Source of the DNA: Ruegeria conchae
GTDB lineage: Bacteria; Pseudomonadota; Alphaproteobacteria; Rhodobacterales; Rhodobacteraceae
Assembly (NCBI RefSeq): GCF_000192475.1
Contig: NZ_AEYW01000006.1
Span: forward strand, 248,001 to 312,000
Direction of reading: 5' to 3'
Length of the DNA stretch: 64,000 nt
The notes under the pieces were generated by a model. It had not been told where the DNA came from and did no database searches. It saw nothing but the letters and a program-made list of their open reading frames with translations. This document shows, one piece after another, positions 20,133-36,887 of the stretch (the first letter of the stretch is position 1; every line of letters begins with the position of its first letter). The translations under genes and the position numbers were made by a program.

Positions 20133-21128
20133 ATGATGATGAAGAAGCTACTCAGCGGGGCGGTTGCCGCCTTTAGCCTGGCAGCCAGCGCGGCACTTGC
20201 TGCCGATGAGGTGACGCTGCAATTGAAGTGGGTCACGCAGGCCCAGTTTGCAGGCTACTATGTGGCGAAGGACAAGGGGTTCTACGAAGAAGAGGGGCTG
20301 GACGTTACAATTCTACCCGGTGGCCCCGACATTGCACCCACTCAGGTGATTGCAGGCGGTGGTGCAGACGTGACGGTCGAATGGATGCCAGCCGCGCTGG
20401 CCGCGCGTGAAAAGGGTCTGCCTCTGGTAAACATCGCACAGCCCTTCAAAAGCTCAGGCATGATGCTCACTTGTTGGAAGGATGCTGGAATTGCTGCACC
20501 CGAGGACCTGAAGAACCGTACTTTGGGTGTTTGGTTCTTTGGCAACGAATTCCCGTTCATGAGCTGGATGAGCCAGCTGGGTATCAGCACCGATGGCAAA
20601 AGCGACAGCGGTGTCGAGGTTCTTAAGCAAGGCTTTAACGTCGATCCGTTGCTGCAGCGCCAGGCCGATTGCATTAGCACTATGACCTACAATGAGTACT
20701 GGCAGGTCATCGATGCCGGTGTCACGCCCGAGGAACTGGTGACCTTCAAATACGAAGATCAAGGCGTCGCTACGCTTGAGGATGGCCTCTATGTGCTTGA
20801 GGAAAATCTGAGCGATGCGGCCTTTGCCGACAAGATGGAGCGTTTTGTCCGTGCCTCGATGAAAGGCTGGAAATACGCCGAAGAGAATCCGGATGAGGCC
20901 GCTGAGATTGTGCTTGAAAATGATGCAACCGGTGCCCAGACCGAAGAGCATCAGAAACGCATGATGGGTGAGATTGCCAAGCTAACCGCAGGGTCGAATG
21001 GTGCTCTGGACCCGGCTGATTTCAATCGTACGGTTGAGACTCTGCTGGCCGGTGGTTCCGATCCAGTTATCACCAAGCAGCCGGATGGTGCTTGGACACA
21101 CCAAATCACGGATGCTGCGCTGAACTAA
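20133..21128 (+). CDS. NMT1/THI5-like periplasmic substrate-binding protein
   Basis: The 331-residue product has a signal peptide (LLSGAVAAFSLAASAALA, cut before ADEVTL) and the NMT1/ThiY pattern LQLKWVTQAQFAGYYVAKDK. Members bind thiamine-pyrimidine precursors, riboflavin-like compounds or pyrimidines. The SBP is the last gene of the importer set after a 54-base gap, and its own RBS AGGAG (20126-20130) is strong, which fits the excess usually needed. Three ATG codons in a row (20133, 20136, 20139) make the exact start uncertain by two residues. Location behind the pyrimidine enzymes favours a pyrimidine ligand. Confidence 0.93.
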   Translation: MMMKKLLSGAVAAFSLAASAALAADEVTLQLKWVTQAQFAGYYVAKDKGFYEEEGLDVTILPGGPDIAPTQVIAGGGADVTVEWMPAALAAREKGLPLVNIAQPFKSSGMMLTCWKDAGIAAPEDLKNRTLGVWFFGNEFPFMSWMSQLGISTDGKSDSGVEVLKQGFNVDPLLQRQADCISTMTYNEYWQVIDAGVTPEELVTFKYEDQGVATLEDGLYVLEENLSDAAFADKMERFVRASMKGWKYAEENPDEAAEIVLENDATGAQTEEHQKRMMGEIAKLTAGSNGALDPADFNRTVETLLAGGSDPVITKQPDGAWTHQITDAALN

Positions 21129-22746: not shown

Positions 22747-23562
22747 ATGATCCCTGATTTCATTCGGGCATCAATTGTTGCGCTTGGGCTAACCGCTGGC
22801 GCAAGTTTGGCGGAAGAACCCTTTATTATCGTGCAGTCCACGACCTCTACTCAAAACTCGGGTTTGCTTGATTATATCTTGCCCGGGTTTGAGGCCGAAA
22901 CCGGTATTGATGTGCGGGTTGTGGCTGTTGGAACTGGTCAGGCGATCCGAAATGCAATCAACGGGGATGGTGATGTCCTGTTGGTTCATTCCAAATCAGC
23001 CGAAGAGCAGTTCGTTGCTGATGGTTGGGGGGTTGAGAGGTTCGATGTCATGTATAATGACTTTGTTCTCGTCGGCCCGAAATCTGACCCGGCCGAGGTC
23101 AAGGGCGATACCGATATCATCGCAGCCCTTGCGGCAGTGGCCAGCTCCAAAGCGCCCTTCGTTTCGCGCGGCGACGACAGCGGAACCCACAAGGCCGAGA
23201 TGCGTTATTGGCAGGTGACAGATGTCGACCCGACAGTTGCGTCGGGAACATGGTATCGCGAGGCTGGAGCGGGCATGGGCGCATCGCTGAATATCGCTAG
23301 CGGAATGGGCGCTTATATCCTGACGGATCGCGCAACATGGCTTTCGTTTGGAAATCGAGGTGATTTGGAAATCCTGGTTGAAGGCGATCCTCGAATGTTC
23401 AACCAATATGGTGTGATTCTGGTGAACCCAGAGAAGCACTCAAAAGTTCGTGCAACTTCGGGGCAGAGGTTCATTGATTGGTTGATTGGTGCTGATGGTC
23501 AGGCGGCGATTGAATCCTATGAGTTGGATGGGCAGCAGATGTTCTTTCCGAACGCAAGATGA
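22747..23562 (+). CDS. tupA: Tungstate-binding periplasmic protein
   Basis: The 271-residue product has a signal peptide (IVALGLTAGASLA, then EEPF) and the TupA hallmark TTSTQNSGLLDYILPGFE, whose Thr/Ser residues contact the oxyanion in known TupA proteins. The PDF-type middle segment SRGDDSGTHKAEMRYW and C-terminal RFIDWLIGADGQAAIESYE are also typical. The start at 22747 has GGAG 8 bases upstream; the longer open frame reaching into tupC is not used. It converges on the regulator gene with a 39-base gap. Confidence 0.94.
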   Translation: MIPDFIRASIVALGLTAGASLAEEPFIIVQSTTSTQNSGLLDYILPGFEAETGIDVRVVAVGTGQAIRNAINGDGDVLLVHSKSAEEQFVADGWGVERFDVMYNDFVLVGPKSDPAEVKGDTDIIAALAAVASSKAPFVSRGDDSGTHKAEMRYWQVTDVDPTVASGTWYREAGAGMGASLNIASGMGAYILTDRATWLSFGNRGDLEILVEGDPRMFNQYGVILVNPEKHSKVRATSGQRFIDWLIGADGQAAIESYELDGQQMFFPNAR

Positions 23563-23601: not shown

Positions 23602-24474
23602 TCAGCCACTTGCGCCGTTGTGGTGAATCTGGCCCAGATACCTGAGGTCATATCCGCCCAGGTCGGTAGCGCGTTCAGAGAAACGCTCGGATTGCAGGAA
23701 CTGGATTAAAGTCTGCATCGGCGGCTCAAAGAAAGCGCGTCGCCAGATGGCAAGATCTAACCGTTCAGAGTGAGTGGGCACAAAGCTCAGCCCATAAGGG
23801 CTCGCAAGTGCACCGAGGCCGAACCCGGCTTCTGCTTTGCCATCCCGTACGGCAATCGCCAGTTCTTCTTCAGTGCGGGCGCAGATCGGGAGGGCATTCA
23901 GGTCCTCTCGGCCGAGCCCATGCTTGCCAAGCTCTGCATCGAAAAGGTGCTGACTGGCGGCACTGTCCTGTCGCAGGATGACGCGACGGCCTTTCAAGTC
24001 CTGAATACCAGAGATTTCAGGTGTGCCAGTCGCAAGCAACAGGCCGCGCTGCCGATGCGCGATTTGGTAGAGGATCACCGGGGCGTTGCCCATTTTGTCG
24101 CGCAAAGACTGGGTGTTAAAGCCTTCGGGTTCATGGATATGCAACGCAGCCGCTTGTGCTGTGCGGTCAGATAGGCGGTTCAGCCCGTCGAATGAACCGT
24201 CATAATAGGTGGCCAGCCCCGAGCCACTTTCCCTCAGCGCCCAATCCAGCAGCGGATCATGGCTGCCGGCGACAATGGGGGGCAGGGGCGGTTCAGCCAC
24301 CTGCGGACCAGAGCGCGAGGCATTGAGCCATGCGATGATCTCTGCCTTCGGGAACAGCAGTTTTCCCATTGCCCGCACGCAAGGGATTTCACCAGAGGAC
24401 GCCAGATCATAGGCTTTCCGCTCACCAATGCGCAGCAGATCCGCCAATTCGCGTGTTGTCAGGTATTGCGACAT
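23602..24474 (-). CDS. One-component regulator: excisionase-type HTH plus periplasmic-binding-protein-like domain
   Basis: Residues 1-50 form an excisionase/MerR-like helix-turn-helix (LTTRELADLLRIGERKAYDL, then MGKLLFPKAEIIAWL). After a proline-rich link, residues about 70-290 match the PBP_like domain (GSHDPLLDWALRESGSGLA, LILYQIAHRQRG-like strand, LKGRRVILRQDSAASQHLF) related to molybdate/tungstate-binding proteins but without a signal peptide. A cytoplasmic tungstate or molybdate sensor is the natural reading. It is the last gene of the fdh operon, directly abutting the small peptide gene, and faces tupA. Targets are probably the fdh and tup promoters. Confidence 0.85.
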   Translation of the reverse strand: MSQYLTTRELADLLRIGERKAYDLASSGEIPCVRAMGKLLFPKAEIIAWLNASRSGPQVAEPPLPPIVAGSHDPLLDWALRESGSGLATYYDGSFDGLNRLSDRTAQAAALHIHEPEGFNTQSLRDKMGNAPVILYQIAHRQRGLLLATGTPEISGIQDLKGRRVILRQDSAASQHLFDAELGKHGLGREDLNALPICARTEEELAIAVRDGKAEAGFGLGALASPYGLSFVPTHSERLDLAIWRRAFFEPPMQTLIQFLQSERFSERATDLGGYDLRYLGQIHHNGASG

Positions 24475-24613: not shown

Positions 24614-25876
24614 TCAGTTTTCGGGTGCCGTGGCGTGTCGTAAAAAGGTGACCAGATCAATGCGGTCTTGCGATCCGCTAATCCGCTGCATTGGCATATT
24701 TGATCCCGGAATGTAATGATCCGGGCCCTTGTCGAAAAGAGCGTTTATTGTCTCTTCATCCCAAATGATATCAGAAGTTTGCAGTGTATCTGAATAAAGA
24801 TAGTCCGGTACTGTCCCTGCTTTGCGTCCAAACACCCCATACAGGGTTGGACCCGCGCGCCGCTGGTCATCCGGTGAAAGGCTATGACAGATTGAGCATT
24901 TGCGGGCAAATTGGCGTTCCCCATTTCCCATCTCGTTCGGGTTCTTCAGGAAACTGGGTTCGGCCGCCGCCATCTGCTCGCGGTCTTCCGAGGCCGCGAT
25001 CGGCCAGCTATACATCGCTTCGTCAATTCCGCCAGCATGAATATTTTGCCCATCGTTCGAAAAAGCCAGAGCCCAGACAGGCCCGCGTAGCGTAGCCCTG
25101 AAATCTTGCGAGATACGCCAGTTCAGGGTGTCGATGACCATGATAAAACCTTCACCATCACCGACGGCGAGAAGGCTTCGATCAGGGCTGAGGGCAAGCG
25201 CCAGTATCGGCCTTCGGTCCAGGGTGAAATCGCGTTCGTCGCCAGTTGCCAGGTCAAGGATGCGGGTGACGCCATCGACGGCACCGTAGGCGATCCAGTT
25301 GTCGATAGAATTCAAGACCAACCTGTTCACGCCGAACCCGTGCTCGATAAGGCGATCCACCTCCTGACCGCTCGCGACATCCCAGAGGCGGACCGAACCA
25401 TCGACACCCGCCGAATAAAGCTGTGATCCATCAGCAGTGAATTCCACGGCGTTTACCCCGCTGCCCGTTGGCCCGAGCAACATAGGTTCTGACCCATCGA
25501 CCGGCCAAAGCCCGATCATTCCGTCCCAGCTTGCCGTGGCGACATGAGTTTTTGATGCAGCGAGCCCGACGATCTTTCCTTTGTGTTGTCCAACGATTTC
25601 GCCTCCGGGCCAACGGCGTAGCGTGAAATCATCACCAGCAGAATAGATTGCGGTGCCGTTGAACACGACAGTGTTGACGGCAGCTTCATGGCCTTCCAGC
25701 CATTCCGGGGTCTGTCCGGTCCACAGGCCAACCGAATTGTCGAAACTCGCCGTTGCGATGCGCCCGTCTTGTGCGATTGCGATCCCCATGATCGGCCCGC
25801 CATGGCCTTTGAGCGTGAAGAACTCGGACCAAGCGGGCAGGGGGATCAAGCCAAGCGTCAGAACCAGCCAGCGCAT
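24614..25876 (-). CDS. Periplasmic WD40 beta-propeller fused to a class I cytochrome c
   Basis: The 420-residue protein has a signal peptide (WLVLTLGLIPLPAWS), then seven WD40-like repeats up to about residue 300 (for example SVRLWDVASGQEV and FSNDGQNIHAGGIDEAMYSW), then a cytochrome c domain of about 100 residues. The haem motif is CSICH and the probable distal methionine is in GSNMPMQRI; the PTLYGVFGRKAG segment is usual for the cytochrome c class of small mono-haem proteins. It directly precedes the small peptide gene and abuts the fdh gamma gene. A role as periplasmic electron acceptor, or as a scaffold docking a cytochrome on the dehydrogenase, is inferred. Confidence 0.9.
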   Translation of the reverse strand: MRWLVLTLGLIPLPAWSEFFTLKGHGGPIMGIAIAQDGRIATASFDNSVGLWTGQTPEWLEGHEAAVNTVVFNGTAIYSAGDDFTLRRWPGGEIVGQHKGKIVGLAASKTHVATASWDGMIGLWPVDGSEPMLLGPTGSGVNAVEFTADGSQLYSAGVDGSVRLWDVASGQEVDRLIEHGFGVNRLVLNSIDNWIAYGAVDGVTRILDLATGDERDFTLDRRPILALALSPDRSLLAVGDGEGFIMVIDTLNWRISQDFRATLRGPVWALAFSNDGQNIHAGGIDEAMYSWPIAASEDREQMAAAEPSFLKNPNEMGNGERQFARKCSICHSLSPDDQRRAGPTLYGVFGRKAGTVPDYLYSDTLQTSDIIWDEETINALFDKGPDHYIPGSNMPMQRISGSQDRIDLVTFLRHATAPEN

Positions 25877-27085
25877 TTATTCAGCGGGTGAGGCCGCCGC
25901 TTTGCTGGCCTCTTTTTCCTGCACCTCTTCCAGCCACAGCGAGTGATGCTCGCGGGCCCATTGTTCTTCGACTTCACCAGTGCCCATGGCGTCAAAAGCA
26001 CCTTCCATGCCGACTGAGCCGAGGTAGATATGGGCTATGATGATTGCAATGAACACATAGGCCACCATGACGTGCCAAACCTGAGCATATTGCATCTCTT
26101 CTTGTGGCGACATCTGCACGGGTAGGTTCAGGCCCAGCATCTGTGGAATGCCGGTTGCGTTGGCGATTTGGAATGTCTTTGCGAACATCGGCAGCTCAAA
26201 CGGGAACAGCAACGAAAGGCCCGACAAGCTGATCGAGGCGCCGAGTAGTATGCAGGCCCAGAAAATCACCTTTTGACCTGCGTTGAACTTCTTTGCGGGC
26301 GGGTGGCTGTTCTTGGTGAACAAACCACCTCCGGCTGCGAGCCACTTCAGGTCGGTCTTGTTGGGTATGTTGTGTGAAATCCAGTTCACGGTGACGATGA
26401 TCAGACCAAGCATGAAGGCCCAGGCGAGGTTGTTATGTAGCCATTTACCCCCCTGAGCGATGGTTGCGAACCTTTCCTTGCCGAAGATCGGGATCAGGAA
26501 GTCACGGCCATAAAGCGCCAGCAGGCCGGTGATGCCAAGGATCAGGAATGAACCGGCAAATAACCAATGTCCGAACCGTTCGAAACTATTGAACCGCAGG
26601 ACCTTGCGCCCGGTCTTTTCGCCATCAATGCGGATTTTTCCGCGGATCAGGAAGAATAGAACGATGACCGCAAGCATTCCCGCGATGATGTACGTACCGT
26701 ATTCGCGCAGTGGCCCGGTACGGAAATTCAGCCACCACATACCGCCATCTTGAATCAAAACACTGTCTGCTGGTCCATGGGATGAAACGGTGACATCTGC
26801 CGATCCATAGCGCAGCGCGCGATAGACATCGCTGTCTGAGGCGACGCCGCGCGTGCCGATTTGCCCGAGCAGGCCTTCCACATTGCCCTGTCCGGTATTT
26901 TCCGACCGATAGCTGTTATCGACCTTCTCACCGCGCTGACGGGCCAGAATGTCCTCAAGCGTTGTCGCTCCGCCGGTCGAAGCGCGTTCATTCGTGGTTG
27001 CGGGTGCCTCAGCGTCGTTGGTTTGGGCAACGGAAGCGTGGACCAGCCCGATGGTGAACAGCAATGCGAAGAGTAAGCGGAACAT
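25877..27085 (-). CDS. fdhC: Formate dehydrogenase gamma subunit (cytochrome b556)
   Basis: The 402-residue membrane protein has a signal peptide (LLFALLFTIGLVHASVAQ), a periplasmic extension of about 130 residues, and the four-helix di-haem cytochrome b core (RFNSFERFGHWLFAGSFL, KWLHNNLAWAF, VWHVMVAYVFIAIIIAHIYL). It takes electrons from the Fe-S subunit to quinone. The N-terminal extension is longer than in E. coli FdnI but typical of the alphaproteobacterial and Desulfovibrio-like FdoI family. The ATG at 27085 is preferred over the TTG at 27100 since GAGG lies just before it. Its stop abuts the WD40-cytochrome start. Confidence 0.93.
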   Translation of the reverse strand: MFRLLFALLFTIGLVHASVAQTNDAEAPATTNERASTGGATTLEDILARQRGEKVDNSYRSENTGQGNVEGLLGQIGTRGVASDSDVYRALRYGSADVTVSSHGPADSVLIQDGGMWWLNFRTGPLREYGTYIIAGMLAVIVLFFLIRGKIRIDGEKTGRKVLRFNSFERFGHWLFAGSFLILGITGLLALYGRDFLIPIFGKERFATIAQGGKWLHNNLAWAFMLGLIIVTVNWISHNIPNKTDLKWLAAGGGLFTKNSHPPAKKFNAGQKVIFWACILLGASISLSGLSLLFPFELPMFAKTFQIANATGIPQMLGLNLPVQMSPQEEMQYAQVWHVMVAYVFIAIIIAHIYLGSVGMEGAFDAMGTGEVEEQWAREHHSLWLEEVQEKEASKAAASPAE

Positions 27086-27110
27086 CTGAACCTCGGTCAA
27101 AATCCCTGAT

Positions 27111-27158: not shown

Positions 27159-27752
27159 TTATCCGTCTTTCTGGTCGTAGGCTGTACCCCAACCCCAAGC
27201 GCCCGAGCCGAAGCCGCGCGCCACTACGCGTTCGCGGTAAACAGCAGACACCACGTCGCCGTCACCGGCAAGCAGGGCTTTGGTGGAACACATTTCGGCG
27301 CAGATCGGCAGTTTGCCTTCGGCGATCCGGTTGCGACCGTATTTGGCGAACTCCGCGGTCGAGTGCGTTTCCTCGGGGCCGCCAGCACAGAAGGTACATT
27401 TGTCCATCTTGCCGCGCGATCCGAAGTTGCCCGCCTGCGGATATTGCGGCGCGCCGAAGGGGCACGCGTAGAAGCAATAGCCGCAACCAATGCACAGGTC
27501 CTTGGAGTGCAGGACGACGCCTTCTTCGTTCTGATAGAAGCAGTCGACCGGGCACACCGCCATGCAAGGCGCATCCGAACAATGCATACAGGCCACCGAG
27601 ATCGAGCGTTCGCCAGGGTTGCCATCATTGATCGTTACCACCCTGCGGCGGTTGATGCCCCATGGCACTTCGTGCTCGTTCTTACACGCGGTTACGCAAG
27701 CGTTGCACTCGATGCAGCGTTCAGCGTCGCAGAGAAACTTTGCTCTAGCCAT
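27159..27752 (-). CDS. fdhB: Formate dehydrogenase beta subunit, 4x[4Fe-4S] ferredoxin type
   Basis: The 197-residue protein carries the four cysteine groups of the FdnH/DmsB class: [52 protein letters not shown] and the split group around MDKCTFC and ICAEMC. It wires the alpha subunit to the cytochrome b subunit. The C-terminal membrane anchor of E. coli FdnH is missing, as in many alphaproteobacterial members. The ATG at 27752 follows AGGAGG; the frame upstream is open but belongs to the 11-base gap after fdhA. Confidence 0.95.
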
Positions 27753-27763
27753 TATCGTCCTCC

Positions 27764-30658
27764 TTACGCTGCCCAGATTTTGCAGAGAGTACACTTGGTC
27801 TCTTGCATCTGGGTCACTGAATCATAGCCATAGGTTTGGGCGGTGTTGGTACTTTCACCCAGCACATAGGGGTCTGCACCGGCGGGATATTTGTGCCGCT
27901 GGTCTTCGCCCTGGAAATGGCCGCCAAAGTGGAAGGGCATGAAGGCGACACCGGCACCAACCCTGTTGGTCAGCATCGCCATCACCTTGACCTTGCCACC
28001 CTCAGGACCTTCGACCCAGACCTGCGATCCGTCACGAATGCCAAGGTTGTTGGCATCGCGAGGATTGATCTCGACGAACATATCCTGCTGAAGCTCGGCC
28101 AGCCACGGGTTCGACCGCGTCTCATCCCCGCCGCCTTCATACTCGACCAGACGACCTGACGTTAGGATTATCGGATAATCCTTTGAAAAGTCGTTCTTTT
28201 GGATCGAAGCATAAAGGGTGGGCAGCCGATATGCATGCCGGTCCTCGTAGGTCGGATAATCCGCCACCAGATCGCGACGTGGCGTGTAAAGCGGCTCGCG
28301 ATGCAGTGGGATCGGATCCGGGAAGGTCCAGACAACCGCGCGGGCTTTGGCATTCCCGAAGGGCGCACAGCCATGGGCGATTGCAACCCGCTGGATACCG
28401 CCGCTAAGGTCGGTCTTCCAGTTGGTTTTCTCGCCAGCAACTGCGTCGATGGCCGCGCGTTCTTCTGCGGTCAGATCGCCGTCCCAGCCAAGGTCCATCA
28501 GCATCTGCATCGTAAATTCGGGATAGCCATCCTGAATTTCCGATCCAACGCTATAGACCCCTTCGGCCAGCAGGTTGTCGCCGTCACGTTCCACGCCGAA
28601 TCTGGCGCGGAAGGTCAGGCCACCTTCGGCCACCGGTTTGGACATGTCATAGAGGTTTGGTGTCCCCGTATGACCCATCTCGGCGGTTCCCCAGCAGGGC
28701 CACGGTAGACCGTAATACTCGCCGTCGTTTGGTCCACCAATGGCTTGCAGCGTGGTCCTGTCGAACGTATGCTGGTTGGTCATATGGCTTTTCAGACGTT
28801 CCGGCGACTGACCGGTATAGCCAATTGTCCAAAGGCCGCTGTTGAACTCACGCGTGATGCTTTCAACATTCGGGGTTTCGGGATCTTCCATCTCGATATT
28901 GCGGAAGAACCGATCCGCCCAGCCAAACTTATTGGCGAACTTGGCCATGATGACCTCGTCCGGCAGGCTTTCGAACAACGGATCAACCACCTTGTCGCGC
29001 CACTGCAACGACCGGTTCGATGCTGTGACCGAGCCACGGGTTTCGAACTGCGTACAAGCAGGCAACAGGTAAACGCCGTCGGTACGGTCATGCAGAACGG
29101 CCGAAACTGTTGGATACGGATCGATCACGACCAGCATGTCCAGCTTCTCCATCGCCGTCTTCATTTCCGTCATCCGGGTCTGCGAGTTGGGCGCGTGGCC
29201 CCACAGAACCATGGCGCGGACATTGTTGTCCTGGTCCATGTTGGCCGGGTCTTCCAGAACACCGTCGATCCAACGAGAGACGGGGATTCCGCGCTCATTC
29301 TGGAGCGGCTTATCCTTGCCTTCCTTGTCTTTGATCGTGGCGAACTGACCAGCCAGCCATTCGGGCTCTTCACCCCAAACGCGCGCCCAGTGACCCCATG
29401 CGCCTTTCGACAGACCATAGTAGCCGGGCAGGGTGTGGGACAGAACACCAAGGTCCGTCGCGCCTTGCACGTTGTCATGGCCACGGAAGATGTTGGTGCC
29501 ACCACCCGTCGTGCCCATGTTTCCAAGTGCCAGCTGAAGCACACAGTAGGCGCGGGTGTTGTTGTTGCCGTTGGTGTGCTGAGTACCACCCATGCACCAG
29601 ACGACCGTACCTGGACGGTTGTTCGCCATTGTGCGAGCAACGCGCTTCAATTGCGATCCCGGAGTTCCAGTAACGCGTTCAACCTCATCCGGGTTCCAAT
29701 TAGCAACCTCTTCGCGGATCTGGTCCATGCCCCAGACACGGGTGCGGATGAACTCTTTGTCTTCCCAACCGTTGTCGAAGATGTGCCACAGGATACCCCA
29801 GATCAGCGCCACGTCTGTGCCGGGGCGGAAGCGGACATACTCATCCGCATGCGCTGCCGTGCGCGTAAAGCGCGGATCGCAAACGATCAGAGGGGCGTTA
29901 TTCTGCTCTTTCGCGCGCAGAATATGCAGCAGCGAGACAGGGTGTGCCTCGGCCGGGTTGCCGCCGATGATGAAGATCGCCTTGCTGTTGTGCATGTCAT
30001 TGTACGAATTGGTCATGGCGCCATAGCCCCATGTATTCGCAACACCCGCAACAGTGGTTGAGTGGCAGATACGGGCTTGGTGATCCACGTTGTTCGTGCC
30101 CCAGTAGGCAGCGAACTTGCGGAACAGATAGGCCTGTTCGTTGTTATGCTTCGCAGAACCCAGCCAATACACGCTGTCTGGCCCGGATTCCTCGCGGATG
30201 CTCATCATGCCGTCGCCGATCTCATTGATCGCCTCTTCCCAGCTGATGCGCTTCCACTCGCCGCCTTCCTTTTTCATCGGATACTTGAGGCGGCGCTCGC
30301 CATGGGCGTGCTCGCGGACCGAGGCCCCCTTGGCGCAGTGTGCACCCAGATTGAACGGGCTGTCCCAGCCGGGTTCCTGCCCGATCCAGACGCCGTTCTG
30401 TACCTCGGCTACGACCGTGCAGCCCACCGAGCAGTGAGTGCAGACGGATTTGATATTCTCAACGGCGGTGTTTGCCGCTGTCTGGGCGCTGGCAGGCGTC
30501 ACGGTTCCACCCGTGGCGCTGATTGCGGCAAGGCCGCCGATCGTCAGGCCCGAGCCACGCAGGAATGCGCGGCGATCGACGGTTTTCTCGCCGACCTGGG
30601 ACAGGATACTTGTCCGCTGGGGGCGTCTCGCAACCCCGTTGGTCTTTTTCCTAAGCAT
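27764..30658 (-). CDS. fdhA: Formate dehydrogenase alpha (catalytic) subunit, Cys type, Tat-exported
   Basis: This 964-residue enzyme of the DMSO-reductase family oxidises formate to CO2 in the periplasm using a bis-MGD cofactor with Mo or W. A twin-arginine signal ([11 protein letters not shown], Arg29-Arg30) is followed by one [4Fe-4S] site (Cys73, Cys76, Cys80 and Cys108). The metal ligand is Cys198, followed by the catalytic His199, in [12 protein letters not shown]. coli FdnG has selenocysteine here. The C-terminal dinucleotide-binding domain ([19 protein letters not shown]) is complete. The ATG at 30658 has GGGAGGAAA before it. The tup genes nearby argue for tungsten, not proven by sequence. 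It is the core of a ten-gene operon. Confidence 0.97.
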
Positions 30659-31008: not shown

Positions 31009-31620
31009 TTAATCCGCCGTCATTCGGAAGGCTTCGCGCTCGATCTCCATGAACACCCGACCGGCGGTGCCGGCCGAGGCATAGAGAACCGAGTTCTCAG
31101 CGCCTTCCAAATCTGAATAGAAATGTGTGGCCCAGGGGCCGATGTGTTTACTCCAGAACGCCTTCTGGTCTTCCAGCGAGGCAGGCGCGCCGAAACGCCC
31201 GACGATCATGCCCGCCATCATCTCCATCAGAGAGGCAATGTTGTCTTCGGGTTCGTAAACATTTTGCGCCCTCGTGATACCGCGTGCTGCCATATCATTG
31301 CGAAGCTGGGCCAGCGGTTTTTCGTTCAGAAAACCGGTCAGATAAAAGCTGGCATACGGCAACAATTCACCACGCCCCAATCCGATGAAAAGCGCATTGA
31401 ACTCACGCTCGGCAGCGGCGGGCTTAGTGACCTTTGCCACGCGCGCCATCGCCTCTATGGCCTGACCCAGATCAGAGGCGTCACCGCTCAGCCCTGCCAT
31501 CTGGTCCAGCAGCAACTGATCGGGCGGACCAGCCAGAAGCAAACCCAGAAAATTGTAGAAATCCGCGCGCAGACGATCCTCGGCCGAGATATCAATGGTT
31601 TGCGCGTTGTCTGCGGTCAT
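31009..31620 (-). CDS. TorD/DmsD-family chaperone for formate dehydrogenase
   Basis: The 203-residue cytoplasmic protein has the all-helical TorD fold signatures (DFYNFLGLLLAGPPDQLLL, EFNALFIGLGRGELLPYASF, FWSKHIGPWATHFYSDLE). Members hold the folded alpha subunit until the Mo/W cofactor is inserted and guard the Tat signal. The ATG at 31620 with AAGGAT before it is chosen over a TTG at 31641; this ribosome site overlaps the DUF3306 stop, so the two genes are coupled. Confidence 0.92.
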   Translation of the reverse strand: MTADNAQTIDISAEDRLRADFYNFLGLLLAGPPDQLLLDQMAGLSGDASDLGQAIEAMARVAKVTKPAAAEREFNALFIGLGRGELLPYASFYLTGFLNEKPLAQLRNDMAARGITRAQNVYEPEDNIASLMEMMAGMIVGRFGAPASLEDQKAFWSKHIGPWATHFYSDLEGAENSVLYASAGTAGRVFMEIEREAFRMTAD

Positions 31621-31624
31621 AGAG

Positions 31625-32206
31625 TTATCCTTCGAATTCAAATTTCATGCGGCGCGGAGCAGGGGGGACTTCAAGCTCCTCTGGTTCTTCCACATTAGCC
31701 ACGATCATGGGTTCCGGCGCAGGTTCTTCTGCCTTGGCCGGTTCTTCACGCGCCTCGATCACATCAAGCGTATCTGTCTCTGGATCGCATTCTTGCTCTT
31801 CAGCCTCGGCAGCGAGCGCTTCGACATGAGCCAACATGCCCTTGCCTACCTGATACGCGGTCTGAAGGTTCTCAAGCACGCAGGCTGCGTCGGTGTAGTC
31901 CTCGCCGTAGTCGACCAGCCCGTCGACATTGGCCAGAACAGGGTTCAGCCGCCATAGGCGCCGCAAGGCGCGGCGGCGCAGGCGGTCAGGCACGGCTTTG
32001 GCCATGAAGCCCGAGACATCATCACCTGCTTGCAGCGTATCGGGATCGGGCAGATCAAACTCGGACAGAATTTCGGCGTCGCTTTTTTCTTCCAGCTCAG
32101 CTTGCCGCGTTGTGATGATCTGTTCCTTTGCGGCCAAAGCTTCTGCTTCGGTCTCGGCCTGAACGGCGGCCTTGCGGCGGGACCAGAAATCGCGCGCTTG
32201 GGTCAT
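31625..32206 (-). CDS. DUF3306 protein of the formate dehydrogenase locus
   Basis: The 193-residue protein begins with the family hallmark ARDFWSRRKAAVQAE and has the conserved core LRRRALRRLWRLNPVLANVD. The C-terminal half is acidic and low in complexity. DUF3306 genes occur almost only in Fdh operons together with DUF3305 and TorD, so an accessory role in maturation is inferred from family context. Its start overlaps the DUF3305 stop by 4 bases. Confidence 0.9.
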   Translation of the reverse strand: MTQARDFWSRRKAAVQAETEAEALAAKEQIITTRQAELEEKSDAEILSEFDLPDPDTLQAGDDVSGFMAKAVPDRLRRRALRRLWRLNPVLANVDGLVDYGEDYTDAACVLENLQTAYQVGKGMLAHVEALAAEAEEQECDPETDTLDVIEAREEPAKAEEPAPEPMIVANVEEPEELEVPPAPRRMKFEFEG

Positions 32207-32757
32207 TGCAGCACCCGACGCGGTGCGCGGTAGACATCTGTGTCCTGACGGATGCGAGCGTCGCCTTTTCCGTCCTCAACCAAATCTATGCGCTTCTTAT
32301 CCCGACGGCGCTTTACGAACACTTCGTCCCGATGATGCTGCAGCGTGAAATCGCGCACCCAAGCGATTAGACCTTCTGTCATCGGGATCTTCTCGACAAT
32401 CTCCTCGCCGGTATCAGCGTAGTCCTGACCTTCAAACGGAGAGGCCGTGATCAGCACTGCATTCAAGGGAGTTTCACCTTTCAACTCATCCCGAAGCACC
32501 AGGTAAAGCGAGGGCTGTCCGTCCGACAGGTTCACCATATAGGCCTCTGTCTCGTCAGCCCAGAGTGATAGAGGCAGTGTGGCAGCGTGATATTCGACGG
32601 TTTCACCTTCGCGGCGCAGCTCTTGCCAATCCGCAGGTCCGGCACCAGGCAACAAAGCGACTGCGCGCCAGCTCCAGCGGGCCCAACGAGTGACCCCGGG
32701 TGTTTTGCGCACGATGACGCCAACCGGCATTTTAATCTGGCTTGCGGCCTTGGCCAC
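32203..32757 (-). CDS. DUF3305 protein of the formate dehydrogenase locus
   Basis: The 184-residue protein has the DUF3305 pattern MPVGVIVRKTPGVTRWARWS and later PSLYLVLRD. Translation starts at GTG 32757 after GGGGAGGAGCCA. It is the first gene of the fdh operon and is divergent from the large ferredoxin protein across 258 bases. The function is unknown; the family always travels with Fdh genes. Confidence 0.9.
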   Translation of the reverse strand: MAKAASQIKMPVGVIVRKTPGVTRWARWSWRAVALLPGAGPADWQELRREGETVEYHAATLPLSLWADETEAYMVNLSDGQPSLYLVLRDELKGETPLNAVLITASPFEGQDYADTGEEIVEKIPMTEGLIAWVRDFTLQHHRDEVFVKRRRDKKRIDLVEDGKGDARIRQDTDVYRAPRRVLQ

Positions 32758-33015: not shown

Positions 33016-34971
33016 ATGACCAGCAAGCTTTTGTTGTGTGATTGCGAGGGGACGCAATCAATTGACGCAGATCGCATATCTTCGGCCTGTGAACTGAGCT
33101 GTTCAAAGGTACATACTGCGCTTTGTACCCGAGAACTTGGCGTGGTGGCTGAAATGCTTCAGACCGACGATCAGGTGGTGATTGCCTGCGGGCAAGAGAC
33201 TGTCGTGTTTTCTGACCTTGCAGATGATCTGGGTGTGGATCAGCCGGGATGCGTTGACCTCAGAGACCGTGCTGGCTGGTCGGATCAGGGCCAAAATGCA
33301 GCGCCTAAAATGGCAGCGTTGGCAGCTGAAGCGATGTTGCCGCAGCCGATCACTTCTGCAGTTGATGTGATCAGCGAAGGCACTTGTTGTATCATCGGGT
33401 CGGGCGAGATCGCTTATGATCTGGCTGAACAATTATCGGACAGCTTGGCCGTAACGGTTTTGGTCACAGATGAGGTTCAACCGCTGAGCCGTGCTTTTGA
33501 TGTTATTCGTGCCAAGGTGCGGAACTTGTCGGGCGCACTGGGTGGGTTCACGTGGCATCTGGATCAAGTGCAACAGTTAGAACCCGGCGGGCGTGGTGAT
33601 TTCGCGTGGAGCGCGCCGAGGGATCGGGCCAAATCGCGCAGTGATATTGTTGTTGATTTGACCGGAGGTACGGCTTTGGTTGCAGCCCCGGATAAGCGCG
33701 AAGGCTACCTGCGCGCCGATCCTCGTGATGCGGTTGCGGTTGCGCGTCTAGCCTTCGATGCGGTGCAACTGGTCGGTACCTTTGAAAAGCCGCTTTATGT
33801 GCGACTGGATGAAGCGCTTTGTGCCCATTCGCGCGCAGGACAGACCGGGTGTTCGAACTGTTTGGACATATGCCCGACCGGTGCCATCACATCAGCGACA
33901 GATCATGTGGCAATCGACCCCATGATTTGCGCCGGGTGTGGTGAGTGTTCTGCCCTATGCCCGTCTACAGCCATTACTTACGAGGATCCGCCGGTATCTG
34001 CCATTCTCTCTAGGATGCACATACTGGCGCGAACTTTTCGTCGGGCAGGGGGTACAGCGCCGCGTTTGCTGGTGCACGATGCCCACGGGGCGCAGATGAT
34101 CCGAATGGTTGCCCGGTTTGGCCGAGGTCTTCCAGCGGATGTCATTCCACTAGAATTGAACGTGGTTTCAGGCTTTGGTCATGCCGAGATGCTGGCCGGG
34201 TTGGCACATGGCTTCGCCCGCGTCGACGTCCTGTTGGGGCCCAAAGTCGAACGGGACGCGCTGGATCGGGAACTGGTTTTGGCGCAGGCCATCGCGGGGC
34301 AGGGTGCCCTGAGCCTGATTGACGAGGTTGACCCGGATGCGTTTGCTGATCTGCTTTACGCGCAAGAGGTGCCGCTACCATTGACCGATCCGGTTCTTCC
34401 ATTGGGGAACCGGCGACAGATCACCCGACTGGCGGCACAAGCGCTGAATGCCAAGACCGAATCACCGTTGGCATTGCCCGATGGCGCGTCATATGGCGCC
34501 GTCGTAGTAAACACTGGCACCTGCACCTTGTGTCTCAGTTGTGTATCTTTGTGCCCCTCAGGTGCGCTGATCGACAATCCAGACAAGCCGCAGTTGAACT
34601 TTCAGCAGGATGCCTGCCTGCAATGCGGTATCTGTCGCACGATCTGTCCTGAGCAAGCCATTAATCTGGTGCCGCAGCTTGACCTCAGCGACAAGGCCCT
34701 GTCGCAGCAGGTTCTTAACGAGGAAGAGCCGTTCGAATGCATCGAATGTGGTGCGGCCTTTGGCGTCAGGTCGACGATCGAGCGCATAATGGACAAACTG
34801 TCGGGAACACATCCGATGTTTGCAACTTCGGATCAGGCAAGGCTGATTCAGATGTGTGATGATTGTAGGGTAAATGCTCAGTTTCACAGCGCTGATAATC
34901 CTTTCCAATCATCTCCCAGACCCCGTGTCGTGACAACGGACGATTATTTTTCAAAGCGTAAGGATCACTGA
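33016..34971 (+). CDS. Large multi-[4Fe-4S] ferredoxin-type protein linked to formate dehydrogenase
   Basis: The 651-residue protein lacks a signal peptide, so it acts in the cytoplasm. Residues 1-250 include cysteine pairs (CDCEG, CELSC) and a nucleotide-binding-like strand (CCIIGSGEIAYDLAEQL). Two ferredoxin modules follow, one near residue 275 (CSNCLDICPTGAI, CAGCGECSALCPSTAI) and one near 500 (CTLCLSCVSLCPSGAL, CLQCGICRTICPEQAI), giving up to four [4Fe-4S] clusters. The tail has FECIECGAAFG and a CDDC pair, a likely extra metal site. It is divergent from the fdh operon. It may shuttle electrons or sulfur during dehydrogenase maturation; the function is not established. Confidence 0.88.
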   Translation: MTSKLLLCDCEGTQSIDADRISSACELSCSKVHTALCTRELGVVAEMLQTDDQVVIACGQETVVFSDLADDLGVDQPGCVDLRDRAGWSDQGQNAAPKMAALAAEAMLPQPITSAVDVISEGTCCIIGSGEIAYDLAEQLSDSLAVTVLVTDEVQPLSRAFDVIRAKVRNLSGALGGFTWHLDQVQQLEPGGRGDFAWSAPRDRAKSRSDIVVDLTGGTALVAAPDKREGYLRADPRDAVAVARLAFDAVQLVGTFEKPLYVRLDEALCAHSRAGQTGCSNCLDICPTGAITSATDHVAIDPMICAGCGECSALCPSTAITYEDPPVSAILSRMHILARTFRRAGGTAPRLLVHDAHGAQMIRMVARFGRGLPADVIPLELNVVSGFGHAEMLAGLAHGFARVDVLLGPKVERDALDRELVLAQAIAGQGALSLIDEVDPDAFADLLYAQEVPLPLTDPVLPLGNRRQITRLAAQALNAKTESPLALPDGASYGAVVVNTGTCTLCLSCVSLCPSGALIDNPDKPQLNFQQDACLQCGICRTICPEQAINLVPQLDLSDKALSQQVLNEEEPFECIECGAAFGVRSTIERIMDKLSGTHPMFATSDQARLIQMCDDCRVNAQFHSADNPFQSSPRPRVVTTDDYFSKRKDH

Positions 34972-35693
34972 AGTTGCAGCGGTGCGCCCAGATCGGCGGC
35001 GCTGATGGCGGCGACAAAGGCCAAAATGGCTTCGAGATCATCCAGACTTATTTCCACCGGATGGATCGGCGATGGACGCTCGGGCGGGAAGGGCTCGGTT
35101 ACGCCCTCAATCTGAGTGAAGGCGGGATGCGGGTTCAGGGCAAAAAAGGCCTGAAACCGCTCGGACCAATCAGGCATCGCGCGCAGGACGGCGAAAGACG
35201 GCGTGGAACCCAATCCGTTCATGCGATTTTGCGGCCCGATCACATGGCACCGACCACAGTGAGTAAACGACAAATCCTGACCCAAAGCAGCATCTCCGTC
35301 GATTTTAGCGTCTTCGACAACATCTGCGATTTCGAAGTTCGCGCTAAAGGGCCCACCTTCAGCGGGAACAAAGCTTTCGACCGTACGTTTCCCAATGTCG
35401 GACAACAGCCAGTCTCGGAACTTGATTTCCTTTGCGCTGGCATTAATGCGCAGGTGATAGACTGTTTCGTCACGGGCAAAAACCGGATCGCCAGGAGGTG
35501 CCGGAGCAAGAGCCATTACACCATTATCGTCTGCGACAACGCGAACCCCAGTCTTGAGAGAGAAGCGCGGAAGGATATGTTGCAGAAGACCCGAGTTTGA
35601 AATCTCATCTGGCGCTGCGAGTCCAATTGCCTCTTGTGACCAAGAGGGGGTGGCGGTGAGCGTCAGGCTCAGGCACAACAGGACAAAGCGCAT
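34965..35693 (-). CDS. Fusion of a reduced TupA-like binding domain to a c-type cytochrome
   Basis: The 242-residue exported protein (signal LLCLSLTLTATPSWS) starts like TupA: ISNSGLLQHILPRFSLKTGV compares with TQNSGLLDYILPGFEAETGI of tupA in this window. After about 30 residues the chain jumps to a segment like the TupA C-terminus (KFRDWLLSDIGKRTVESFVP against RFIDWLIGADGQAAIESYEL). The whole middle lobe is absent. A cytochrome c domain follows with haem motif CGRCH and a tail resembling a cytochrome c helix. It converges on the ferredoxin-protein gene with a 7-base overlap. It is periplasmic, probably part of the Fdh/tungstate system. The start at ATG 35693 is likely; TTG 35699 is possible. 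Confidence 0.82.
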   Translation of the reverse strand: MRFVLLCLSLTLTATPSWSQEAIGLAAPDEISNSGLLQHILPRFSLKTGVRVVADDNGVMALAPAPPGDPVFARDETVYHLRINASAKEIKFRDWLLSDIGKRTVESFVPAEGGPFSANFEIADVVEDAKIDGDAALGQDLSFTHCGRCHVIGPQNRMNGLGSTPSFAVLRAMPDWSERFQAFFALNPHPAFTQIEGVTEPFPPERPSPIHPVEISLDDLEAILAFVAAISAADLGAPLQLQ

Positions 35694-35825
35694 GGCCAAA
35701 CCTAACGGTGTCAGGCCAATTGCGTCAAATGAACGAAATGAGACGGAGTATCATGCAATGAGCGGCGACCGCAATCAGTCGACACGCAAGACCCTAATCG
35801 AAGGGCGGGCAACGGAGGTGATCGC

Positions 35826-36887
35826 ATGAGCATCCGTGACGCCGTACTGGCGAACCTTAAGAAGATCACTGATCCTGTTTCCGGACAGGATATCGTCAGC
35901 GCAGGTATTGTGCGCGCGCTGAATGTCGAGGGGGATACGGTACGCTTTGTACTTGAGATTGATCCCAAACAGGCCGAGAAAATGGAGCCCGTGCGCGCCA
36001 CAGCCGAGAAAGCGGCGCAGATGGTGGACGGCGTGTCCAACGTCTCGGCCATGATGACCGCGCATTCAGACAAGGTCCCACCCGATTTGAAGCCCAAGCC
36101 TAAGCCTTCGCAAACCGGTCCGCAGGCGGTTCCGGGTGTGGACCGGATCATCGCGGTGGCGTCTGGTAAAGGGGGCGTCGGCAAGTCCACTGTGTCGGCC
36201 AACCTTGCCTGCGCGCTAGCCGCAGAAGGGCGCCGCGTGGGTCTTTTGGATGCAGATGTCTACGGTCCGTCGCAACCCCGGATGCTGGGCGTCTCGGGCC
36301 GTCCGGCCAGCCCTGATGGCAAGACGATTCTGCCTTTGCGCAATCACGGTGTTACCATGATGTCGATGGGACTGATGACCAACGAAGGACAGGCGGTTGT
36401 CTGGCGTGGCCCGATGCTGATGGGCGCATTGCAGCAGATGATGGGGCAGGTGCAATGGGGCGCGCTGGATGTGCTGATCGTTGACCTGCCTCCTGGCACG
36501 GGTGATGTGCAACTTACGTTGAGCCAAAAGTTTCAGGTGGATGGCGCCATCGTTGTTTCAACCCCACAAGACGTGGCTTTGATCGATGCTCGCAAGGGGA
36601 TCGACATGTTTAATCAGCTCAAAACACCCATCTTTGGGATGATTGAAAATATGTCGACACATATCTGTTCGAATTGTGGACACGAAGAACACGTGTTCGG
36701 TCATGGCGGTGTGGCGTCAGAAGCCGAGGCATTGGGCGTGCCGCTGCTGGGTGAGATACCACTGCATCTGGATATCCGCGTGGCAGCAGACGGGGGTGCT
36801 CCGATCGTGGTCAGCAAACCCGACAGCCCACAGGCAGAAGCCTTCCGCAAGATCGCTCGCGACATGATTGCCAAGGGGAATGCATGA
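35826..36887 (+). CDS. Mrp/NBP35 (ApbC) family Fe-S cluster carrier ATPase
   Basis: The 353-residue cytoplasmic protein has an N-terminal MIP18/DUF59 domain (residues 1-80) and a P-loop ATPase with the deviant Walker A GKGGVGKSTVSANLACAL. The cluster-binding CxxC is in ICSNCGHEE. Members carry and insert [4Fe-4S] clusters into target enzymes. GGAGG stands before the ATG at 35826. It leads a three-gene unit with ATGA and TGATG overlaps. Placement beside fdh suggests service to its Fe-S proteins, but it may be the housekeeping Mrp. Confidence 0.94.
   Translation: MSIRDAVLANLKKITDPVSGQDIVSAGIVRALNVEGDTVRFVLEIDPKQAEKMEPVRATAEKAAQMVDGVSNVSAMMTAHSDKVPPDLKPKPKPSQTGPQAVPGVDRIIAVASGKGGVGKSTVSANLACALAAEGRRVGLLDADVYGPSQPRMLGVSGRPASPDGKTILPLRNHGVTMMSMGLMTNEGQAVVWRGPMLMGALQQMMGQVQWGALDVLIVDLPPGTGDVQLTLSQKFQVDGAIVVSTPQDVALIDARKGIDMFNQLKTPIFGMIENMSTHICSNCGHEEHVFGHGGVASEAEALGVPLLGEIPLHLDIRVAADGGAPIVVSKPDSPQAEAFRKIARDMIAKGNA

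Follow-up and report, generated by a model that had tools for sequence, protein, structure and literature searches.

The protein XoxGJ of Methylacidiphilum is described as a fusion of a cytochrome c with the binding protein XoxJ (PMC8498564). In the binding protein TupA, lobe A is made up of residues 2-76 and 201-251, and lobe B of residues 91-200 (PMC5517513). Half of a binding protein has also been obtained by design, one of the engineered halves of the ribose-binding protein having been produced as a separate protein (PMC9815098). The fdh3DABC genes of Methylobacterium extorquens PA1 are said to encode a periplasmic formate dehydrogenase (PMC12180729), and the DUF3305, DUF3306 and fer4 accessory genes in such operons have already been described (PMC4464133). 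Here, a gene is reported from Ruegeria conchae that encodes what is in all likelihood one lobe of TupA joined to a cytochrome c, and that lies beside the genes of a formate dehydrogenase of the FDH3 type. It was found on the minus strand, at 34965..35693, of a 64,000-nucleotide stretch of DNA (contig NZ_AEYW01000006.1, positions 248,001 to 312,000 of the forward strand), the whole of which is called the window.

The fusion protein resembles each of these systems in part. With TupA (NF041772, PDB 5my5), it shares the fold of lobe A and both terminal sequence motifs, in collinear order. It differs in having no lobe B, hinge or TTTS residues, in the reversed charge of the alpha1-beta2 stretch and in the attached cytochrome c. 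Like XoxGJ, it combines a binding protein with a cytochrome c that would serve a periplasmic dehydrogenase; the partner of XoxGJ, however, is the methanol dehydrogenase XoxF, and here it would be FDH3, the two fusions being compared without regard to sequence or domain order. XoxJ is, moreover, a whole two-lobed protein. The halves of the ribose-binding protein are likewise half of a periplasmic binding protein standing alone, those halves being designed and permuted. The ribose-binding protein belongs to another class of binding proteins and has no redox domain. The FDH3 of M. extorquens corresponds to the enzyme encoded beside the fusion gene, with scores above the cut-offs of the beta and gamma subunit models; in the genomes that were searched, the fusion was seen in the family of the window and in family f80. 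The NarJ-family/fdhGHI operons contain the same accessory set of DUF3305, DUF3306 and fer4, whereas the accessible part of that account mentions no gene for a TupA-cytochrome (PMC4464133).

The open reading frame of the fusion gene extends from an ATG at 35693 to a stop codon at 34965-34967 and is translated into 242 residues; an alternative TTG start at 35699, two codons upstream, would give 244. A signal peptide is followed by a TupA lobe A domain of about 100 residues and then by a cytochrome c domain with a CGRCH motif. The signal peptide (residues 1-20, 35634..35693) is suggested by a modelled N-terminal helix over residues 2-13, and its boundary at residue 20 is a probable one, with the cleavage site placed by eye. 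The lobe A minidomain occupies residues 20-121 (35331..35636), as delimited by structural alignment to 5my5 and by the blocks of predicted local confidence (pLDDT), which lie at 94-97 over residues 21-120 of the predicted structure. The closest plasmid copies of the protein are annotated as hypothetical protein (four of five) or c-type cytochrome (one of five).

For the comparisons below, 89 fused homologues were collected by requiring coverage of the query from residue 32 or earlier to residue 235 or later, which favours rows keeping the N-terminal motif. Filtering below 72% identity left 56, and these together with the window gave 57 fused rows. The 25 TupA rows were taken from the loci in the analysis at more than 200 bits. 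Two alignments were also used, namely A1 with 46 fused rows (the window and 45 of the 56) and A2 with 57 rows (the 46 fused rows, including the window, and 11 stand-alone cytochromes).

It was advanced in the initial annotation that an N-terminal pattern and a later segment of the protein match the two ends of tupA, with the middle lobe missing, and several comparisons bear this out. BLASTP of the fusion protein against the TupA of the window gave two collinear pieces, with expectation values (E) of 1e-6 for the N-terminal and 0.003 for the C-terminal piece in a single comparison. When the fused family was aligned with TupA by hhalign, the N part scored 46.8 and the C part 58.6, again collinear. 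The former corresponds to the beta1-alpha1-beta2 segment (residues 23-54, 35532..35627) and the latter to the C-terminal helices (residues 87-107, 35373..35435). The similarity thus persists at the level of profiles, as the maxima after shuffling of columns were only 18.2 and 17.3, respectively (100 shuffles each), and 11 decoy families drawn from neighbouring genes reached at most 18.3. A further decoy family, combining a helix-turn-helix with a periplasmic-binding-protein (PBP)-like domain, was dropped as too small. Besides the gene itself, the only matches to the fused-family profile in its own genome at E <= 1 were the two ends of tupA (window 22774-22956 and 23449-23562), and among PDB sequences 3muq, 5my5 and 3cvg ranked first. 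Chance similarity to TupA was ruled out on the strength of these hhalign controls, the PDB ranking and the own-genome search. The NCBIfam TupA model matches 17 of 46 members of the fused family, with a best E of 1.8e-6; the window protein itself gave no match to this model, whose cut-off is 400 bits, at E 0.5 or 0.1.

The predicted fold leads to the same protein. In structural alignment with VIA-align, TupA 5my5 was the top match of the lobe model (Z 13.1, root-mean-square deviation 2.3 A, 102 aligned residues, model 20-121 against chain 2-251), and binding proteins of the ModA and PstS types ranked below it; the unrelated fold that would have refuted the observation did not appear. The Foldseek E-values for the lobe were weak, 0.014 for 3muq and 0.020 for 5my5, with probability 1.00. 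The middle lobe is indeed missing, since Lys47 and Trp95, which are 191-194 residues apart in the 25 TupA rows, are separated in the 57 fused rows by 47-81 (median 51). About 140 residues, comprising lobe B and the hinge, are gone, so the protein lacks the two-lobed build of TupA with its oxyanion cleft. In the model, the gap left by lobe B is closed by a beta hairpin (residues 69-82, 35448..35489; strands 69-74 and 77-82), which occupies the place of lobe B and of the strands of the hinge. The N-terminal domain is, therefore, almost certainly lobe A of TupA minus its hinge strands and lobe B.

Longer middles of 81, 79 and 71 residues, against the median of 51, were seen in three fused loci (L096, L094 and L105). 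Such homologues may be intermediates in which a larger part of TupA lobe A is retained.

The residues known to hold the ligand have not survived this reduction. The TTTS columns Thr, Thr and Ser are invariant in the 25 TupA rows and are replaced in the fused family: the first has Pro in 39, Ala in 8, Asp in 8, Ser in 1 and Asn in 1 of the fused rows, with Thr in none of the 57, and the Ser column has Glu in 21, Ala in 16 and Thr in 3, besides others. R118, T124 and D170, which have been named as likely TupA ligands, are located in lobe B (PMC5517513). Because the TTTS residues are replaced and the latter three sat in the absent lobe, the known tungstate site is lost. The suggestion that the protein could couple oxyanion binding to redox state, made in the initial annotation, is not supported by this, and oxyanion sensing by the lobe was rejected as a candidate role. 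In a broader version, tungstate or another oxyanion would still be sensed by the lobe, or the lobe would dock on TupB, the tungsten supply being coupled in this way to redox state; this version draws on the presence of TupA in 117 of the 118 genomes positive for FdhA, the alpha subunit of the enzyme, and on the closeness of tupABC to the fdh block in many loci. Since 51 genomes that lack FdhA also have TupA, however, its presence does not discriminate, and the reversal of charge in alpha1-beta2 relative to TupA would make a retained TupB contact unlikely. TupB docking as the main role was set aside on these two grounds, and the whole explanation is considered very improbable.

The lobe that lost the metal site has acquired a new and constant character. 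Arg43, Phe44 and Lys47, in the beta1-alpha1-beta2 segment, are present in 57/57 fused rows (codons of Arg43 and Lys47 at 35565..35567 and 35553..35555). In the 25 TupA rows, the Arg43 column is unconserved (Ala 8, Glu 6, Ile 3, Gln 3, Gly 2, Leu 1 and two others) and the Lys47 column is mostly acidic (Asp 16, Glu 5, Lys 4). Over the 18-residue alpha1-beta2 stretch, the mean net charge is +3.51 in the fused rows (2 to 6, n=57) and -2.72 in TupA (-5 to 0, n=25), and the two ranges do not overlap, the rows within each being related by descent. A repurposed docking domain, the other role that had been offered for the lobe, fits these observations better than oxyanion coupling does, and it is put forward here as a conjecture from the conserved basic patch.

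It may be argued that the lobe is a mere passenger, that is, a relic of the fusion which does no more than provide a signal peptide and a soluble spacer, without a separate function. The variable length of the middle (47-81 residues) and the lack of a constant charge over the whole lobe would suit such a relic, and lobe-less, stand-alone cytochromes do persist in five genomes (G004, G054, G342, G613 and G707). A spacer, however, would hardly be expected to keep three residues without exception or to show a local charge reversal without overlap, and its fold is predicted at a pLDDT of about 95. The passenger explanation is, hence, regarded as unlikely.

The cytochrome c domain spans residues 131-242 (34968..35303). 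Its PF00034 score of 15.5 bits stays below the gathering cut-off of 21.3, and 37 of 46 family members match the model at E <= 0.1, the best at 8e-5. The haem-binding CGRCH (residues 146-150, 35244..35258), which had been noticed at the outset behind the lobe, has its C, C and H in 57/57 rows, so that the CxxCH attachment is universal in the alignment. With regard to a class I cytochrome c fold, Foldseek returned cytochromes c as its top rows, none at E <= 0.001, and the VIA Z was at most 6.9 (Kustd1711 6.9, SoxX 6.1). As only low-Z cytochromes were matched, no partner can be read from the fold search. No invariant Met was found as a distal ligand, the best column being Met158 in 37/56 rows. 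The sole other invariant His, His189 (35127..35129), is present in 57/57 rows and is the candidate distal ligand; the haem is, on sequence grounds, predicted to be bis-His.

In a tree of 113 columns rooted at the midpoint, six stand-alone rows fall outside the fused group and five inside it, which suggests that the TupA lobe can be lost from fused cytochromes. According to one reading of the sequences, an old FDH3 cytochrome may have gained the lobe once and been followed by a few later losses, a point that the tree cannot settle.

The search for the same two-domain layout in related genomes, which had also been advised at the start, showed the fusion to be widespread and tightly linked to fdh genes. 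Among the 248 genomes from the family of the window, 103 had some match; ten were dropped for matching only through a TupA-like N-terminus, leaving 93 with the cytochrome, of which 91 are fused (by coverage or by reading of the locus) and two are stand-alone (G004 and G054). At E <= 1e-150, FdhA was found in 118 of the 248 genomes, and these include 90 of the 93 with the cytochrome. In the remaining three (G019, G069 and G158), the gene lies on short contigs with its usual cluster neighbours, and in G069 and G158 a fragment of FdhA is seen at the contig end. FdhA is found on the same stretch in 85 of the 89 fused loci. One fused locus, L117, lacks fdh genes on its stretch, but the genome concerned (G533) encodes an FdhA of 86% identity elsewhere. 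Altogether, the gene lies away from fdh in six genomes (G533, fused; G613, G707, G325, G429 and G478, stand-alone), and every one of them has FdhA elsewhere at 1717 bits or more.

A sample of 289 genomes from the class gave a similar picture, and showed that stand-alone relatives of the cytochrome are present in further families. The whole fusion protein was matched in 38 of them, mostly at one end only, and the cytochrome profile in 14 (E 1e-8): five fused (four f1, one f80), seven stand-alone and two marginal. All seven stand-alone hosts contain a close relative of the window FdhA, either on the same stretch (G342, G353, G248 and G432; 1498 to 1726 bits) or elsewhere in the genome (G325, G429 and G478; 1717 to 1796 bits). 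Stand-alone cytochromes lie within or beside the FDH cluster in L110, L111, L112 and L115. Near those located outside fdh clusters (L108, L109, L113, L114, L116, L174 and L175), no obvious partner was apparent among the neighbouring open reading frames, which were listed without a family search. The linkage of the fusion gene to FDH3 is strong.

This linkage bears upon the possibility that the protein is a free shuttle, whose basic patch docks a terminal oxidase or the bc1 complex and for which FDH3 is just one donor. Cytochromes c that feed oxidases usually carry basic docking patches, and since the cytochrome domain here is acidic (mean net charge -4.8, 57 rows), the lobe could supply such a patch; the gene, furthermore, is set apart from the fdhABC run and is convergent with the 4Fe-4S gene. 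Nevertheless, a shuttle for general use would be expected in many genomes that lack FDH3, and in the sets tested the gene occurs with it in 90 of 93 genomes. The free shuttle is, accordingly, thought to be rather improbable.

The surroundings of the gene are well conserved. On the C-terminal side of the fusion lies a plus-strand gene (33016..34971) for a 651-residue 4Fe-4S protein, which has several 4Fe-4S motifs (Pfam Fer4) and is otherwise without a named domain, and on the N-terminal side one (35826..36887, plus) for an Mrp/NBP35-type ATPase, so called from the product name on a syntenic plasmid. These are the two most constant neighbours: each is found in 86 of the 89 fused loci, at 600 bases or less and 1.2 kb or less, respectively, and both flank the fusion in 83, it being noted that 35 of the 89 loci are from close relatives, mostly Ruegeria. 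Further along, on the minus strand, come the DUF3306 and DUF3305 genes (31625..32757; names from the syntenic plasmid, with a weak DUF3305 match of 78.5 bits) and a TorD/NarJ-type chaperone (31009..31641; PF02613, 104.5 bits). They are followed by the three subunits of the enzyme: the molybdopterin-containing alpha (27764..30658; TIGR01591, 480.5 bits), named by its neighbours and synteny; beta (27159..27794; NF038355 FDH3_beta, 342.6 bits, above the cut-off of 240); and gamma, the b-type cytochrome of the quinone side (25877..27100; TIGR01583, 138.9 bits, above the cut-off of 115.85). The same gene order is seen on a Sagittula plasmid, on which the beta subunit carries the name FDH3 and the counterpart of the fusion is annotated as 'hypothetical protein'.

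With several maturation-type genes in the cluster (TorD, DUF3305/3306, Mrp and the 4Fe-4S protein), the fusion protein could also be imagined as an accessory for FDH3 assembly or haem delivery, for instance to the WD40-cytochrome described below or to gamma, with no part as a carrier in turnover. A CxxCH haem domain, however, is typical of electron transfer, and 28 of the 118 FdhA-positive genomes manage without the gene; such a role is thus held to be highly unlikely.

Some other features of this part of the window may be recorded. The gamma subunit has an N-terminal extension of about 165 residues ahead of its b561 domain, with a conserved TGGA(Q/T)TLEDILxRQ motif; it is not evident in some loci. 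This extension was considered as a possible docking site, and it is present both in loci that have the fusion gene and in loci that lack it. The full two-lobed relative, tupA, lies at about 22747..23562 on the plus strand (NF041772, 212 bits, below the cut-off of 400). Between it and the fdh genes, at 23602-24474 on the minus strand, a protein with a helix-turn-helix and a PBP-like domain (PF12728, PF12727) is encoded, which matches the end of the molybdopterin biosynthesis model PRK14498 at 124 bits, below the cut-off, and is perhaps a regulator of the molybdate/tungstate type. A gene for an NMT1/THI5-like binding protein (20133-21128, plus) directly precedes tupB. In another genome (G687; L176, 9113-10191), a copy of the fusion close to the end of a contig is divided between two frames, and the best FdhA match is 35% identical; the broken copy perhaps reflects decay after the loss of FDH3.

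A second cytochrome is a candidate partner. Downstream of the gamma gene, at 24614..25876 on the minus strand, lies a gene for a protein with a WD40 propeller and a cytochrome c domain (WD40, 107 bits; PF00034, 36.3 bits). It is present in 81 of the 248 family genomes, all 81 of which are FdhA-positive. Among the 118 FdhA-positive genomes, both cytochromes occur in 73, the fusion type only in 17, the WD40 type only in 8 and neither in 20 (Fisher p 5e-7, relatedness uncorrected). Counting fused rows only, the corresponding numbers are 71, 17, 10 and 20 (p 5e-6, likewise uncorrected). This association suggests that both cytochromes belong to a single optional branch of the c type, which would exist alongside the quinone route provided by the gamma subunit. 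The WD40-cytochrome gene is far from the fdh cluster and yet kept in G188 and G141.

It is proposed that the fusion protein is exported and would have one haem c attached in the periplasm. The first helix and the following strand, with the invariant Arg43 and Lys47, would have been rebuilt from an acidic to a basic stretch, thus creating a docking face. Through this face, the former TupA lobe would dock on a new partner, for which FDH3 and the WD40-cytochrome are the likeliest candidates, and electrons would be exchanged with FDH3 directly or through the WD40-cytochrome. That the protein is an electron partner of FDH3 is considered probable. For docking by the lobe the chances are about even, and the combined proposal, an optional periplasmic electron partner of FDH3 in which the TupA lobe was turned into a docking surface, is likewise finely balanced. 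The direction of electron flow, the surface exposure of Arg43 and Lys47 and the ligation of the haem by His189 are presumed in it.

Several observations weigh against this proposal. The fusion gene is missing from 28 of the 118 FdhA-positive genomes, and FDH3, therefore, does not need it. In 11 of 22 such gene-less genomes inspected, the 4Fe-4S and Mrp frames are simply adjacent, 4 to 253 bases apart; the other 11 show contig ends, rearrangement or an FdhA of only about 60% identity. The gamma subunit already provides a quinone route. For the three exceptional genomes, a targeted FdhA search found a protein of 35% identity at best in G019, none at E 1e-60 in G158 and a fragment in G069. The score of the alpha subunit lies below the TIGR01591 cut-off (480.5 vs 666.25 bits), although no other NCBIfam model matches it better. 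Taken over its full length, the lobe is slightly acidic, with a mean net charge of -2.3 (-9 to +10; residues 20-121, 46 rows), and, as it is not basic overall, the docking idea depends on the local patch only. The mutual placement of lobe and cytochrome is uncertain in the model (predicted template modelling score 0.56), and the nesting of stand-alone rows within the fused group has weak support values (80/91 and 80/83).

No description of the fusion protein was found in the open-licence literature, as searched by titles and the beginnings of abstracts, and the single-lobe binding proteins met there were only the engineered halves, as given in the accessible part of that report (PMC9815098). 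The parts are thus known, and the fusion of a binding protein with a cytochrome has a precedent in XoxGJ (PMC8498564). What is new, as far as these searches reach, is the single natural lobe, its origin from TupA and the link to FDH3. That a binding protein was severed neatly at the hinge, and that its single remaining lobe became, through local reversal of charge, the docking module of a dedicated FDH3 cytochrome, is offered as a tentative view, somewhat less likely to be right than wrong. The electron acceptors of periplasmic FDH3 appear to be little studied, and a conserved cytochrome associated with FDH3 in the genomes tested is a direct candidate. The protein is also an example of how one half of a two-lobed binding protein can survive by itself and take up other partners. 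If the proposal is true, it would, together with XoxJ and also MxaJ, suggest that solute-binding proteins have been turned into docking modules for redox partners along the same route more than once.

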